DNA of 64,000 bases from Actinomadura chibensis NBRC 106107 (GTDB lineage: Bacteria > Actinomycetota > Actinomycetes > Streptosporangiales > Streptosporangiaceae), in contig NZ_BCQP01000040.1 of NCBI RefSeq assembly GCF_001552135.1, positions 1 to 64,000 of the forward strand, given 5' to 3'. Below the pieces are notes generated by a model. That model was not told where the DNA came from and ran no database searches. It saw only the letters and a list, made by a program, of their open reading frames with translations. Numbering within the stretch: the stretch's first letter is position 1; each line of letters opens with the position of its first letter. Shown piece by piece: positions 18,112 to 24,698 of the stretch. The translations under genes were made by a program, and so were the position numbers.

Positions 18112-19248
<1,137 letters not shown>

Positions 19249-19258
19249 TCACAGAAGG

Positions 19259-19534
19259 CTACTTCACCCGGCGCGCGACCCACGCGACCAGGGTCCCCAG
19301 CGCGGCGGCGCAGATCCCGCCGATCACGGCGGGCGGGTAGATCCAGTCGTCGCCGCGCGCGTGCGCCTGGACGGCGGTCCGCGCGGAGTCGTAGGTCAGG
19401 AACGCCAGGAACAGCGCGACGAGGACGACCGCGACCCGTCCCGACAGGGCGTTGACCTCGCGGCGGCGCTCCTCGCGCTCGGCCTCCCAGCGCTCCGCCT
19501 CGTAGCGCTCCGACTCCGCTGGGTCTTCACTCAT
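19259..19534 (-). CDS. Small two-helix membrane protein upstream of serC
   Basis: The 91-residue product starts MSEDPAESERYEAERWEAER, a highly charged coil-like stretch, followed by two hydrophobic helices (VAVVLVALFLAFLTYDSA and AVIGGICAAALGTLVAWV) and a basic tail. The frame continues upstream to 19615, but the ATG at 19534 is the natural start because the upstream part covers the palindromic region. It ends 10 bases before serC on the same strand, so the two may share a transcript. Function unknown. Confidence 0.65.
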   Translation of the reverse strand: MSEDPAESERYEAERWEAEREERRREVNALSGRVAVVLVALFLAFLTYDSARTAVQAHARGDDWIYPPAVIGGICAAALGTLVAWVARRVK

Positions 19535-19570
19535 GCCGTCAATGATGACAAAGTGGCCGAGTTTCCGGTG

Positions 19571-19582
19571 CGGGACGTCCCG
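19571..19582. promoter_or_regulatory. 12-bp perfect palindrome CGGGACGTCCCG
   Basis: CGGGACGTCCCG at 19571-19582 is a perfect palindrome in the divergent region between the 19534 leftward start and the receptor gene at 19700. A GTCA-ATGA-TGAC dyad lies just before it. This is a possible operator for either gene; no regulator is implied. Confidence 0.35.
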
Positions 19583-19699
19583 TATTGGAAAGTTTCGATC
19601 CTTTTCGGGACGCACTGCGTCAAATGCGGATAGGGCGGGAGGGGTCTCGGGGAGGCGGCCGGAGGATCAGCGTCGGGTAGGGGAAGCGAGGCGTGCGAG

Positions 19700-22570
19700 A
19701 TGGCGGGCGACGGCGACCGGGTCCTGAGCGAGGATCGGTTACGCGGAGTGCTCGACCTGTTCGAGCGGTTGCGGGAGCGGCCGCCGTGGCGGTGGCGCGA
19801 ACGCCTGCGACCGCTGCTCCTGCTGCTCGGCCCGGCGCGGGCCACATCCCATCTCGCGGAGATGCTGAAGACGCGCTGCGAGGACGAGCGGGCGCCCGTC
19901 TCGCACATCGCGGCCGACACGCCCGCGACCGACGTGTCGGGGGTGCTGCGGGAGGCCAAGCGGGAGCTGTCGCAGCCGAGCAGTCACGGGCGCGGGGAGC
20001 CGCCGCTGCGGTTCCCGCTGCTGGAGATGGCGCTGTGGCTGCGCGACCTGCGGGAGATCCGGCTCGCCGGGGACCGTCCGCCGCCGCGTGGGGCGTCGGC
20101 GGCCGAGCGGGAGAACCATCTGCTTGTGCGGCGGCTGACGCACCCGCCGGTTGGCGACAACGAGAACACGCGGCGCCGGGAGCTGAACCGGGTGATCCGG
20201 CGGCGCGGCCGGGACGTGCTGCGCGACCTGGAGGAGCGGCGCGGTCGTCCGGCGACGTTCCTGGCGTTCCTGGAGCAGATCGCGCCGATCGGGATCGCGG
20301 TGGTCGCGCTGGTCAGCGCCGGGACGGCCGCCGCGCTCGACCTGGCGGCGGCGGTGCTGGCCGCCGTGATCGGGCTGGCGTTCGTGACCGTGCAGATCCT
20401 CGCGCGCACGCGCGGCTGGTACGGGGTGCACCAGTTCGCGTGGTTCCTGAAACAGCCGTATGTCGATCATGACTCGACGGGTTTCCTCGGTTTCGCGCTG
20501 GGCGTGTTCGATCCGCGCCCGGTCGAGCCGGACGACCACGGCGCGCAGATCGACCTGCTGCTGGTCGCCGCCTTCCTGGAGGATCTGCGGCGCAACTACC
20601 GGCGCGACTACCGGCGGGCGGCGTGGGCGCGGGTCCGCTACCCGGTGCTGATCTTCGAGCACCTGGCGGCCGGGCACCCGGGCGTGACGTTCGTGGAGCT
20701 GGTCGAGCGGGTCCGCGCCGACACCCAGGCGACGGAGGGCCTGCCCGGCTTCGACCCGCTGGTCGTCACGGCGGGGGTGGACCCGAACGCGCCCGCCGAC
20801 GACTCCGCCGCCGGGCCGCGGCTGGTCGACCGGCTCGCCGAGGCCGTCCGGGTGGACGTGTCGTCCGGCGAGCCGTGCGGCGTCGTCGCGGCGCGCGTCC
20901 TGTGGGACGGCTACACGCGCGAGCAGCGCCGGGTCGGCGCGCTCGGCTCGCGCCGGGAGCTGCGCGTCGACATCACCCGCGACCCGGGCGGCGACCTGCC
21001 GTCCGTCCGGCCGGTGCGGCGCCGCCCGCGGCTCGCGCACCCGGCGCTGCCGTGGATCGCGATGGTCGCGGTCGCGGCCGCGTCCGTCAGCGTCATCTCC
21101 GTCCAGGTGGTGCGGTACTGCTCGCCGTTCGGGATCCGGCGGATGGCGAACGGCGAATGCGTCGGGATCACCGACGGGTCGTTCCGCTTCGGCGAGAACT
21201 CCGGCGGCCGGAACAACGACAACCGGCTGAACAAGGTCCTGGACGAGATCGAGTCGCAGAACGACCGCGTCAAGGAATCCGGAAAGCCGTACTCGACCGT
21301 CGTCTACCTCGGGCCGGTGACGGCCGACCCGTCCATCGAGAACCGGCGGATCGACCTCCTCGCCGGGGTGCAGGGCGAGCTGATCGGGCTCGCCGTCGCG
21401 CAGAAGCGGTTCAACGACGCGGCCGAGGGCGACGACCTCCGGCTGCGCGTGCTGATCGCCAACGCGGGCGCGAAGTTCCGGTACGCCGTGCACGTCGCCC
21501 AGCAGATCCGCAAACGGGCGCTGAAGGACCGCACCATCGTCGCGGTGCTCGGTTTCGAGCAGAGCAGGCGGCAGACCCAGCAGGCGATCCAGTTGCTGGC
21601 GAAGTCGGCGCTGCCGCTGGTCGGGACGGCGAACAGCTACGACGGGACGGCCCTGCTCGACGGCGACGCGGGCTACTCGCCGTACTATTTCCGGCTCGCG
21701 TCCCCGAATTCGCGGACGGCGAAGCACGCCGCGTTCTGGGCGCGGAACGGCGACGTCGGCGGCGCGAAGGCGCGGGAGGCGGCGGTCGTCTACAACGGCG
21801 ACCCGGACGACCTCTACAGCGGCAACATGGCGTCCGACTTCCAGAAGGCGTTCCGCCCGGGAAAGGCGCGCATGCTGCCGTACCGGAACCCCGGCGAGCT
21901 GAACAAACTGGTCCGGGAGGCATGCCAGAAGCAGCCCGAGATGTTCTACTACGCGGGCCGCGCCGACGAGTTCCGCTCGTTCGTCAACGTCCTGGAACTG
22001 TCGTGCCCGAAACGGCCGCTCGTCCTCGCCGACGACGAGATCGCGAAATACGTCAGCGACAATTCCTACGAGCTCGGCCGCAAGAACACCTTCGACCTGT
22101 ACTTCACGCCGCTCGCCGCCCGCGAGGCGTGGACGGCGCGCTGGATCGGCGGCCAGTCGCCGCAGACGTTCTACTCCGACTACGACCCCGCCGTCCGGGC
22201 CATGACGGACGGGAACGCCGACCAGAGCAGGCAGCCCGCGATCACCCGCGCCGCCGTGTCCTACGACGCGGTGACGCTCGTCGCCAGCGTGGCGGGACGC
22301 GTCTACTGGCAGGAGAAGGCGCTCCCGTCCGCGACGTCGGTGTTCGCGGCGCTGAACGACCCGGACCACGACGTCCTGCGGAACGGGGCGAGCGGCGTCA
22401 TCCGGTTCAGCTCCCGCACGACCGGGCACCAGGTGCTCGACAAGCCGGTCATGCTCGCGACCCTCAGGCCGGACGGCACCACCGAGGTCAAGCAGGTCTG
22501 CGGCCGCCTCATCGCGGGACGCCAGGGCCCCGCCCACTGCCCGCCCGGAGACGGGACGTCCGACACCTGA
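19700..22570 (+). CDS. Membrane receptor: degenerate P-loop/KAP-like module fused to extracellular type 1 periplasmic-binding domain
   Basis: The 956-residue protein has a Walker-A-like position LLLLLGPARATSHL (residues 39-52) that has lost the GK[S/T]. Two helices follow (about 196-234), then a second cytoplasmic part with a Walker-B-like strand YPVLIFEH (315-322) and PLVVTAG (353-359). A third helix is at 451-471. Residues 480-956 form an outside domain with strands and a cleft like branched-chain amino-acid binding proteins (STVVYLGPVTADPSIENRRI; RYAVHVAQQIRKRALKD; TIVAVLGFEQSRRQTQQAIQ; SALPLVGTANSYDG). A helix hairpin between Walker A and B is the plan of KAP NTPases. No permease or ABC ATPase gene is nearby, so a sensing rather than an uptake role is likely. 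Start: ATG with AGGCG upstream. Confidence 0.75.
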   Translation: MAGDGDRVLSEDRLRGVLDLFERLRERPPWRWRERLRPLLLLLGPARATSHLAEMLKTRCEDERAPVSHIAADTPATDVSGVLREAKRELSQPSSHGRGEPPLRFPLLEMALWLRDLREIRLAGDRPPPRGASAAERENHLLVRRLTHPPVGDNENTRRRELNRVIRRRGRDVLRDLEERRGRPATFLAFLEQIAPIGIAVVALVSAGTAAALDLAAAVLAAVIGLAFVTVQILARTRGWYGVHQFAWFLKQPYVDHDSTGFLGFALGVFDPRPVEPDDHGAQIDLLLVAAFLEDLRRNYRRDYRRAAWARVRYPVLIFEHLAAGHPGVTFVELVERVRADTQATEGLPGFDPLVVTAGVDPNAPADDSAAGPRLVDRLAEAVRVDVSSGEPCGVVAARVLWDGYTREQRRVGALGSRRELRVDITRDPGGDLPSVRPVRRRPRLAHPALPWIAMVAVAAASVSVISVQVVRYCSPFGIRRMANGECVGITDGSFRFGENSGGRNNDNRLNKVLDEIESQNDRVKESGKPYSTVVYLGPVTADPSIENRRIDLLAGVQGELIGLAVAQKRFNDAAEGDDLRLRVLIANAGAKFRYAVHVAQQIRKRALKDRTIVAVLGFEQSRRQTQQAIQLLAKSALPLVGTANSYDGTALLDGDAGYSPYYFRLASPNSRTAKHAAFWARNGDVGGAKAREAAVVYNGDPDDLYSGNMASDFQKAFRPGKARMLPYRNPGELNKLVREACQKQPEMFYYAGRADEFRSFVNVLELSCPKRPLVLADDEIAKYVSDNSYELGRKNTFDLYFTPLAAREAWTARWIGGQSPQTFYSDYDPAVRAMTDGNADQSRQPAITRAAVSYDAVTLVASVAGRVYWQEKALPSATSVFAALNDPDHDVLRNGASGVIRFSSRTTGHQVLDKPVMLATLRPDGTTEVKQVCGRLIAGRQGPAHCPPGDGTSDT

Positions 22571-22651: not shown

Positions 22652-23764
22652 TCAGCCGGCGTGACGCTTGAGGACCTCCGCCGCGCCCTGGACGTCGTCG
22701 ATCGACCGCGTCCCGGGACCGGTGTACCTGGCGCTCGGCCGGACCAGCCGGCCCGTGCGCTTCTGCTCCAGGATGTGCGCCGCCCACCCGGCGGTGCGGC
22801 CGCAGGTGAACATGGCGGGCATCATCGCGGTGGGGACCTCGGCGAAGTCGAGGATGACCGCGGCCCAGAACTCCACGTTCGTCTCGATCGGGCGGTCCGG
22901 GCGCCGCTCGCGCAGCACCGCCAGCGCGGCGTCCTCCAGGGCCTTCGCGGCCTCGAAGCGCGGCGCGCCGAGGTCCTTCGCGGTGCGCCGCAGCACCCGG
23001 GCGCGCGGGTCCTCGGCCCGGTAGACGCGGTGGCCGAAGCCCATCAGCCGGTCGCCGGAGTCGAGGATGTCGGTGACGACCTTGCGGGCGTCGCCGATCT
23101 GCTCGACCTTGTCGATCATCGGGAGGACGCGGGCGGGCGCGCCGCCGTGCAGCGGCCCGGACATCGCGCCGATCGCGCCGGAGATGCTGGCCGCGACGTC
23201 CGCGCCGGTGGAGGCGATCACCCGGGCGGTGAAGGTGGAGGCGTTCATGCCGTGCTCGGCGGCGGAGACCCAGTAAGCGTCGATGGCCCGGACGTGCTTG
23301 GGGTCGGGCTCACCGCGCCAGCGGACCATGAACCGCTCGGTGATCGTGCTCGCCGCGTCGATGCGGTGCTGCGGGACCATCGGGACGCCGATGCCGCGCG
23401 CCGACTGCGCGACGAAGGAGAGCGCCGTCACCGACACGCGGGCGAGGTCGGCGCGGGCCTCCTCGTCGGTGATGTCGAGCAGGGGGCGCATGCCGTAGGC
23501 GGGGGCGAGGGTGGGGAGCGCGCTCTGCACGTCCACCCGGACGTCGCCGGAGGTGACCGGGAGGACGTGCGGGTCGGCGGGGGCGAGGCCGGGGTCGAAG
23601 CTGTCGTCCACGAGGAGGCCCCAGGCGTCGCCGAAGGAGACGCGGCCGACGAGCTCCTCGATGTCCACGCCCCGGTACCGGAGGGCGCCGCCCTCCTTAT
23701 CCGGTTCGGCGATCTCGGTCTCGAAGGCCACGACCCCCTCGAGACCAGGTTTGAAGTCGGACAT
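22652..23764 (-). CDS. citA: Citrate synthase 2 (actinobacterial CitA type)
   Basis: The 370-residue enzyme condenses acetyl-CoA with oxaloacetate. Catalytic histidines are in SGPLHGGAPARVLPMI and MGFGHRVYRAEDPRARVL. The usual catalytic aspartate position (NVDF in most citrate synthases) reads NVEFWAAVILDFAEVP, a glutamate that is also seen in other CitA-type proteins as I recall them. MMPAMFTCGRTAGWAAHILE and GRLVRPSARYTGPG close the fold. The start is ATG 23764, with AGGACG upstream; the frame extends 10 codons further without support. It is divergent from pdxH, a PLP-supply gene, across 181 bases. 2-methylcitrate activity is possible. Confidence 0.9.
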   Translation of the reverse strand: MSDFKPGLEGVVAFETEIAEPDKEGGALRYRGVDIEELVGRVSFGDAWGLLVDDSFDPGLAPADPHVLPVTSGDVRVDVQSALPTLAPAYGMRPLLDITDEEARADLARVSVTALSFVAQSARGIGVPMVPQHRIDAASTITERFMVRWRGEPDPKHVRAIDAYWVSAAEHGMNASTFTARVIASTGADVAASISGAIGAMSGPLHGGAPARVLPMIDKVEQIGDARKVVTDILDSGDRLMGFGHRVYRAEDPRARVLRRTAKDLGAPRFEAAKALEDAALAVLRERRPDRPIETNVEFWAAVILDFAEVPTAMMPAMFTCGRTAGWAAHILEQKRTGRLVRPSARYTGPGTRSIDDVQGAAEVLKRHAG

Positions 23765-23945
23765 GTCGTCCTGCCTTTCGTCTCCGGTGAGCATTCCCCG
23801 TCCGGCCCGTTCGCCGAGCGCGCGCGGCCGGTCCGCGCAGGTTGGGGGCGAGGAATGTTCGGTTGATAAGGCGGTGCCGTGCCATTGAACCCTGTCTGCT
23901 TTACCGTCCAGTACCCAGGGGTCCCGTCAGTTGCACAAGGGCCAG

Positions 23946-24698
23946 GTGAGAGGCTCGGACGCTGTGGACTCCGCAACGCCCGACCCCGCACGGCTCCGCA
24001 GATCCTACGAGGCGGGCGAAATGTCCGAGTCGGCGCTCCCCGCCGACCCGCTCGCGCTGTTCGCCGCCTGGTTCGCCGGGGTGCACGAGTCCGGCCTGGC
24101 CGAGCCGAACGCGATGGTGCTCGCGACCGCGTCCGGTGACGGCGTGCCGAACGCGCGGACCGTCCTGCTCAAGGGATACGGCCCGCAGGGATTCCGGTTC
24201 TTCACGAACCTGACGTCCCAGAAGGGCGTGGAGCTCGCCGAGAACCCGCGCGCGGCGGTCGTGTTCCCCTGGCACGCGCTGCACCGGCAGGTGCGGGCCG
24301 CGGGCCCGGTGTTCGAGCTGTCCAGGGACGAGTCGGCCGCCTACTTCCGGACGCGCCCGCACGGCTCGCGGCTCGGCGCCTGGGCGAGCGAGCACCAGTC
24401 CGGCGTCATCCCCGGGCGGGAGGTCCTGGAGCGCCGCTTCGCCGAGCTGGCCGAGCGCTGGCCCGACCCCGCCGAGGGACGTCCCCCCGGCGCGCCGGAC
24501 GCCGAGTCCGCCGACGCCGTCCCGCTGCCGGACTTCTGGGGCGGGTACCGGCTCGTGCCCGAGTGGATCGAGTTCTGGCAGGGCCGCCGCGACCGGCTGC
24601 ACGACCGCGTCCGGTACCGCCGCGAGGGAGGTCCGCTCGCGCTGGACGGAACCCTGGGGGAGACGGGGAGGTGGGTCATGGAGAGACTGTCCCCGTGA
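23946..24698 (+). CDS. pdxH: Pyridoxine/pyridoxamine 5'-phosphate oxidase
   Basis: The product of about 250 residues is an FMN flavoprotein that makes pyridoxal 5'-phosphate. The FMN-binding region reads RTVLLKGYGPQGFRFFTNL and GVELAENPRAAVVFPW, and the signature near the end reads EWIEFWQGRRDRLHDRVRYR. An alanine/proline-rich insert (PPGAPDAESADAVPL) lies before the last strands. The start is uncertain: GTG 23946 with AAGGG is used, GTG 23964 gives the length closest to relatives, and the TTG at 23931 has no site. Its stop overlaps the following MFS start by four bases (GTGA), so the two are coupled. It is divergent from the citrate synthase. Confidence 0.92.
   Translation: MRGSDAVDSATPDPARLRRSYEAGEMSESALPADPLALFAAWFAGVHESGLAEPNAMVLATASGDGVPNARTVLLKGYGPQGFRFFTNLTSQKGVELAENPRAAVVFPWHALHRQVRAAGPVFELSRDESAAYFRTRPHGSRLGAWASEHQSGVIPGREVLERRFAELAERWPDPAEGRPPGAPDAESADAVPLPDFWGGYRLVPEWIEFWQGRRDRLHDRVRYRREGGPLALDGTLGETGRWVMERLSP

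Follow-up and report, generated by a model that had tools for sequence, protein, structure and literature searches.

STAND ATPases are mainly known as intracellular sensors, and the nucleoside triphosphatases (NTPases) of this class possess a C-terminal winged-helix / GG-x-P half. In the plan of the KAP NTPases, transmembrane (TM) helices are placed between Walker A and Walker B. In our study, a stretch of 64,000 nucleotides from Actinomadura chibensis NBRC 106107 (contig NZ_BCQP01000040.1, positions 1 to 64,000; this whole stretch is called the window) was found to carry, at 19700-22570, the gene of a predicted membrane receptor in which a relic STAND-like NTPase domain is joined to an outside type-1 periplasmic-binding domain. 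The nearest description in the literature searched is that given by Kaur et al. 2020 (PMC7159879) of caspase proteins with TM helices and an outside periplasmic-binding protein (PBP) domain, located beside EACC1; the EACC1-associated system is given there as prevalent in actinobacteria, with a caspase or cyclase and an EACC1 partner gene. The same paper describes iSTAND ternary systems, in which an inactive STAND protein has MoxR and vWA partners and which are almost absent from actinobacteria. No description of a build combining a STAND-like and a periplasmic-binding part was found among the open-access matches listed, subscription papers and preprints being outside the search.

The open reading frame (ORF) 19700-22570 on the forward strand is a real gene. 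It starts with ATG, encodes 956 amino acids (aa) and has a GC content of 0.96 at the third codon position, which fits a coding gene; moreover, A. syzygii (96% identity) and Actinomadura sp. KC06 (82%) carry it intact and collinear, beginning at the same ATG. On balance, we regard its product as rather probably a single-chain ligand receptor that arose from a two-gene module and signals through a pseudo-STAND domain. Among the relatives, the two halves are either fused in one chain, as in the window, or split over two genes, and the fused protein of locus L056 as well as a first set of eight split loci served as the main references for the following parts:

19700 to 22570, forward strand: receptor gene, 956 aa, with a predicted relic STAND-like NTPase domain, 3 TM helices and a type-1 periplasmic-binding domain.
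19811 to 19855, forward strand: relic Walker A, residues 38-52 (PLLLLLGPARATSHL), with strand and glycine kept and GK[S/T] lost, as aligned with the G-x4-GK[S/T] of split NTPases and L056.
20009 to 20038, forward strand: conserved RFPLLEMALW segment, residues 104-113, common to the GK-bearing NTPases in the alignments.
20258 to 20398, forward strand: TM hairpin by hydropathy, residues 187-205 and 215-233, between the Walker positions; none in the 8 first-set split NTPases.
20570 to 20590, forward strand: AFLEDLR helix, residues 291-297, strongly conserved in the alignments of GK-bearing and GK-less members.
20639 to 20662, forward strand: relic Walker B, residues 314-321 (YPVLIFEH), aligned where the split NTPases mostly have LLLDN.
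20750 to 20776, forward strand: FDPLVVTAG, residues 351-359, the aligned strand after Walker B, which we take to be the sensor-1 position.
20795 to 21049, forward strand: cytosolic linker, residues 366-450, the least constrained soluble part, with a ratio of nonsynonymous to synonymous substitution rates (dN/dS) of 0.32-0.54.
21056 to 21112, forward strand: TM helix 3 (TM3) by hydropathy, residues 453-471, predicted to anchor the outside domain.
21125 to 22525, forward strand: type-1 periplasmic-binding (ANF/Leu-Ile-Val-type) domain, residues 476-942, assigned from profile matches and pocket positions.

This anatomy agrees with the preliminary description, which had read from the letters a Walker-A-like loop lacking GK[S/T] (LLLLLGPARATSHL, now placed at residues 39-52), a two-helix hairpin between the Walker positions, a Walker-B-like YPVLIFEH that aligns with the true Walker B of the relatives, a third helix, and an outside binding domain, which begins at about residue 472 and whose family profile matches type-1 periplasmic-binding structures.

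Searches of Pfam, NCBIfam, PADLOC and PHROGs yielded no convincing family for the N-terminal half of the chain in the window. A profile of 20 fused GK-less domains, from which L056 and the split proteins were left out, was compared with that of the 8 split NTPases and gave a probability (P) of 98.9% and an expectation value (E) of 1.5e-17 over an alignment spanning both Walker positions, whereas column-shuffled and reversed controls gave 0.0-0.1% with the fused and 0.0-0.5% with the split profile. The match is more than chance, and it indicates residues 1-450 to be a relic P-loop NTPase domain homologous to GK-bearing STAND-like NTPases; the P-loop reading of the preliminary description thus holds, as the Walker positions that it named align with the intact Walker motifs of the relatives. 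Against 8 NACHT domains the fused profile gave P 0.3%. A plain hidden Markov model (HMM) of the fused domains found all 8 split NTPases of the first set (E 7.4e-5 to 4.9e-18) and, at E < 1e-3 among 1374 predicted proteins, 33 of the 39 split NTPases of genus g56, which is probably Streptomyces (its stretch L217 matches 13 plasmid records, 13/13 from Streptomyces); its other matches were L069|7 and L111|2, both directly beside family genes, L198|4 (E 1.1e-4) and weaker ones.

The relatives of the window domain are, judged from model matches, STAND/AAA-like, as hits to AAA_16, AAA_22, NPHP3_N or nSTAND models were obtained for 6 of the 7 scanned split NTPases, in two cases above the curated cutoff. 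A GG/GHP-like motif is present in the C-terminal region of the split proteins, with the P kept in 7/8; in the window chain no GG/GHP match was found, and only about 85 residues lie between the core and TM3. Its Walker motifs likewise depart from STAND, with GPARATSH in place of a loop with GK[S/T] and IFEH where LLDN is expected, and from these motifs hydrolysis may be presumed lost. Searched against PDB sequences, the fused-domain profile gave no match with an E lower than 0.29; the best 60 rows for the split profile were all P-loop proteins, AAA+ proteins among them, and the matches lay around Walker A.

In the first set, the split NTPase gene lies directly upstream of the gene of a TM-anchored binding protein in 8/8 loci, and its product has GK[S/T] in 7/8, the eighth having GAS; L072 and L073 were fetched through a binding-protein match and are therefore no independent proof of the pairing. 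For the wider test the NTPase profile alone was applied to genus g56 at E 1e-15 or better, and matches were found in 69 of 121 genomes, at 85 places. We examined 43 loci, comprising 40 of these places together with those in G218 and G244 and one in G264. All of them had been located through the NTPase alone, and most were drawn from the upper part of the match list; the binding-protein gene is directly downstream of the NTPase in 41 of them. GK[S/T] is present in 30/43; of the other 13, six read GAS, three GKG and three GR[S/T], and the loop of L187 did not align. Among the split forms, the loop has therefore changed on more than one occasion. The split NTPases of L183 and L217 have GKS and no downstream binding-protein gene, and may possibly be orphan NTPases. 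In the named records of Streptantibioticus cattleyicolor and Embleya sp. NBC_00888 the two parts are close together on one strand, the loop of the former being GSGGS. In L073 (6582-12009) two binding-protein genes follow a single GK-bearing split NTPase, as though two receptors shared a switch. A gene cluster represented in L182 (11198-14142) by CcsB (c-type cytochrome biogenesis) is found within a few genes of the pair in 20/43 loci, and this neighbourhood is another fixed site of the NTPase/binding-protein pair.

Matches to the whole window protein were obtained in at least 93 of 150 genomes of the order, many of them to the outside half alone, and matches to the N-terminal profile in at least 35 of 296 genomes of the class; these counts are lower bounds because 5 (order), 6 (class) and 16 (g56) candidates were scored per genome. 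A phylum-wide search with the split profile gave matches in 302 of 346 genomes, which is no count of the family because, apart from the strongest, they are weak and for the most part do not extend beyond the Walker-A region; among the matches listed, five reach at least 90 bits (G179, G244, G218, G264, G239). Of 50 fused rows, L065, L068, L069, L111 and L113 were dropped, their Walker-A stretch being unaligned in the called chain, and GK[S/T] was found in one of the remaining 45, L056. Hence the question raised in the preliminary description, whether any homologue keeps the GK[S/T], is answered in the affirmative for both fused and split forms. L057, L059, L062 and L106 (no binding-domain gene called) and L122 (contig edge) were left out of the fused and split counts, and GK[S/T] was found in none of them; the second binding-protein gene of L073 and a 411-aa piece beside L108 were counted in neither class. 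Most GK-less fused proteins still show a recognizable hydrophobic strand ahead of the loop. The distant fused protein L056 shows GPSGSGKT and VALVDDID exactly where the window protein has GPARATSH and LIFEHLA, an AAA_22 match above the curated cutoff and, ahead of the TM helix and binding domain, a long C-terminal half in which a GHP motif can be read by eye; it can be assigned as a complete STAND-like protein fused to a binding protein. Forms with and without GK exist in both the split and the fused arrangement; on the tree, whose root is uncertain, a single change accounts for the split state and two changes for the GK state. A fused GK-less form is also present in the named record of Streptomyces fungicidicus.

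Further observations were made on single fused members. A three-frame search up to 1.5 kb upstream revealed other [A/G]-x4-GK[S/T] patterns in 5 further fused rows, and those of L034, L058, L110 and L117 fall outside the aligned Walker-A stretch. L065 (7272-10148, contig C15 of the window's own genome) is a very divergent fused paralogue with an unalignable Walker-A stretch and an ABC-type P-loop pattern around its start, in a stretch reaching 1.5 kb upstream. The Walker-A regions of L117 (EPGSGQAG) and L071 (GGPAAGAI) resemble half-way decay, and L035 (6773-13212, genome G113) carries tandem fused receptor copies, 49% and 65% identical to the window protein. The long N-terminal extensions of the L057 and L059 frames gave no Pfam match and are probably high-GC open frames.

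The outside half of the window protein alone has a weak ANF_receptor match in Pfam (E 0.024, below cutoff). A profile of 33 family members, out of 59 binding domains, matches Leu/Ile/Val-binding and HAAT structures (best 4gnr, E 5.4e-12) and, more weakly, metabotropic glutamate receptors; at E 0.01, single members match ANF_receptor in 8/33 and Peripla_BP_6 in 5/33 cases. Residues 472-956 can be assigned from this profile as a type-1 periplasmic-binding domain. In the alignments, S622, S646, Y706, R754 and D779 fall where the pocket residues of the amino-acid binders are located: S622 is S in 29/33 members, S646 is S or T in 33, Y706 is Y in 30 and F in 3, R754 is R in 33/33, and D779 is D in 27/33. 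The ligand is perhaps amino-acid-like. Cysteines 487 and 769 are invariant among the 33 members, and cysteine 742 is kept in 32/33.

Comparison of the window protein with A. syzygii, L034 and L004, all within one genus, gave an overall dN/dS of 0.13-0.30. The GK-less Walker-A half has 0.075-0.104, the Walker-B part 0.08-0.25, the short TM3 0-0.71 and the binding domain 0.13-0.36, and the GK-less half is, by these ratios, under purifying selection. At the chromosomal site, serC, citrate synthase or pdxH was found within three genes in 28 of 59 family rows, and all three in 17. These 28 serC-site rows form one side of a branch when compared with split rows only, with four marker-less rows inside. 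In the window the neighbours are:

18112 to 19248, reverse strand: serC (phosphoserine transaminase), conserved upstream neighbour, identified by clustering and NCBIfam.
22652 to 23794, reverse strand: citrate synthase, conserved downstream neighbour, identified by clustering and NCBIfam.
23931 to 24698, forward strand: pdxH (pyridoxamine 5'-phosphate oxidase), conserved neighbour, identified by clustering and NCBIfam.

Between serC and the receptor gene lies a 118-aa ORF (19259-19615, reverse strand), which clusters with ORFs of other loci (5 including the window) and has no NCBIfam match. Ten congeners were inspected at the serC site, eight of them picked for having no close match in the order-wide search. 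In 9/10 serC adjoins citrate synthase with no blastp match to the receptor gene between them, and G420 has a receptor gene there with 82.6% identity; in the order-wide search, six sampled congeners have close full-length receptor copies. The site is therefore old.

The preliminary description had taken the N-terminal domain for a KAP-type NTPase with a decayed Walker A, as its TM helices lie between the Walker positions in the manner of the KAP plan. This origin was rejected and is very improbable: PF07693 has no Pfam match in the window protein, the fused profile gave P 0.4% against 7 KAP domains, and the split family, itself STAND/AAA-like, fits NACHT (P 95.2%) better than KAP (84.0%, in the Walker-A region only). 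Moreover, the hairpin is confined to part of the receptor family. By hydropathy, no hydrophobic helix lies between the Walker positions in 8/8 first-set split NTPases (L120 has a segment further on), the hairpin region of the g56 split NTPases is without a helix in 37/39 and borderline in 2, and there is no hairpin in ten fused proteins (L063, L065, L066, L104, L105, L107, L108, L109, L113, L117); in the serC-site rows at least one segment precedes TM3 in 28/28, and two do in 22/28. Because it is absent from nearly all these split ATPases, the KAP-like placement looks convergent and is best read as having arisen within the receptor family, with hairpin losses in other branches being possible because the root of the tree is uncertain. 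It is also highly improbable that the gene is decaying without function. The catalytic motif has been lost and several congeners lack the gene, but the full-length frame is kept in the window, L003, L004 and L034, and the low dN/dS, lowest in the Walker-A half, speaks for a maintained protein.

Two further explanations assign the receptor a different task. As a transport accessory, its binding domain would feed a permease encoded elsewhere while the cytosolic domain anchors or regulates. Among solved structures, the outside domain is indeed closest to ABC uptake binding proteins, and the relative in Streptomyces fungicidicus is named an ABC transporter substrate-binding protein by NCBI; in addition, an ABC-ATPase-like cluster (by eye) is found at distances of 5 to 9 in 7 loci, four of which also have an unclassified second cluster next to it, and an ABC-type P-loop (by eye) lies within 1.5 kb upstream of the paralogue L065. 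However, the ABC-like genes are scattered over the family, no permease or ABC ATPase gene was found among the window genes tested on either side (serC, the 118-aa ORF, citrate synthase, pdxH and an MFS-type transporter), and the binding domain has a STAND-like NTPase as its constant partner and is tethered by a TM helix, which makes this role quite unlikely. A receptor for conflict or immunity, analogous to the two-gene EACC1 system and passing an extracellular cue to an effector, is suggested by the occurrence of both STAND proteins and TM-PBP fusions in actinobacterial conflict systems, as reported in the passages of PMC7159879. We consider it unlikely, since Pfam recognized no effector domain in the window chain, no recurrent effector gene was recognized beside the receptor among the neighbour clusters named, the best PADLOC match of the window protein has E 0.22, and the occupation of a fixed chromosomal site by a single clade points to vertical descent.

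The receptor reading, with a pseudo-STAND domain as the signalling part, can be worked out as follows. The ancestral-looking module would be a gene pair, in which the gene of a STAND-like ATPase without predicted TM helices lies directly upstream of that of a type-1 periplasmic-binding protein with a membrane anchor. In the window lineage the two genes would have been fused, and the ATPase part, which carries the TM hairpin, would have lost its C-terminal STAND half together with GK[S/T] in Walker A and the aspartates in Walker B. With the predicted topology, an extracellular small molecule, perhaps amino-acid-like, may close the two-lobed binding domain, and TM3 and the hairpin would transmit the movement to the pseudo-NTPase domain in the cytosol, which may then change its shape and its binding to a cytosolic partner with no ATP hydrolysis; the AFLEDLR helix before Walker B is a candidate contact surface. 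Several points weigh against this interpretation. The AlphaFold models of residues 1-470 and 473-956 have a mean predicted local distance difference test score of 35 and 40, probably due to an input of three near-identical sequences (window, L003, L004), and because of this low confidence the claims on the fold rest on sequence profiles. A GK-less P-loop may possibly still bind nucleotide, and the GK-bearing L056 has one hydrophobic segment between its Walker positions (residues 415-433 of the open frame), so the hairpin may predate the GK loss. The gene is missing from the serC site in 9/10 congeners and is therefore dispensable, while serC, citrate synthase and pdxH are together with or without it and so give little hint on function. 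No ligand, partner or output was found.

Here a STAND-like protein is coupled, in an operon or within one chain, to an outside ligand-binding domain, and this would give it a route to sense the outside of the cell. We put forward, tentatively, that these proteins may form an undescribed actinobacterial receptor class, in which a binding domain and a STAND-like switch are paired or fused and the ATPase has repeatedly become a pseudo-ATPase with the pocket kept; if true, it would be a bacterial counterpart of the receptors relaying through pseudokinases. The split and fused, GK-bearing and GK-less forms provide a natural series for studying when a signalling ATPase can do without ATP. As the receptors occur in many genomes of the window's order and probably in Streptomyces, they could influence development or metabolism there.

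In comparison with the known systems, the window domain is related to the STAND/AAA-like families (AAA_16, AAA_22, NACHT, NPHP3_N, nSTAND) through its homology to the split partners, six of 7 of which match them, mostly below cutoff, and which share the Walker positions and the C-terminal GG/GHP region. The window protein differs from these families in having no GK[S/T], Walker B aspartates or C-terminal half, and in carrying a TM hairpin and an outside sensor domain. With the KAP NTPases (PF07693) it shares the TM helices between the Walker positions, but there is no sequence match and the hairpin is present in only part of the receptor family. The type-1 periplasmic-binding proteins and the ANF/mGluR-type receptor domains have the same binding fold and pocket positions; the window domain, unlike these, is tethered to a pseudo-NTPase and not to an ABC permease, cyclase or channel. 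The iSTAND ternary systems (PMC7159879) also contain a catalytically inactive STAND domain, but with MoxR and vWA partners, and an outside binding domain is not described in the passages concerned; no MoxR or vWA gene was found among the 10 window neighbours scanned with NCBIfam, 2 of which had no match. The EACC1-associated proteins, as presented in the passages of the same paper, come nearest with a cytosolic signalling domain, a TM helix and an outside periplasmic-binding domain. They possess a caspase or cyclase (no such domain was found by Pfam in the window chain) and an EACC1 partner, none being recognized here, where no EACC1 model was searched, whereas in the window protein the cytosolic part is a predicted STAND-like domain.

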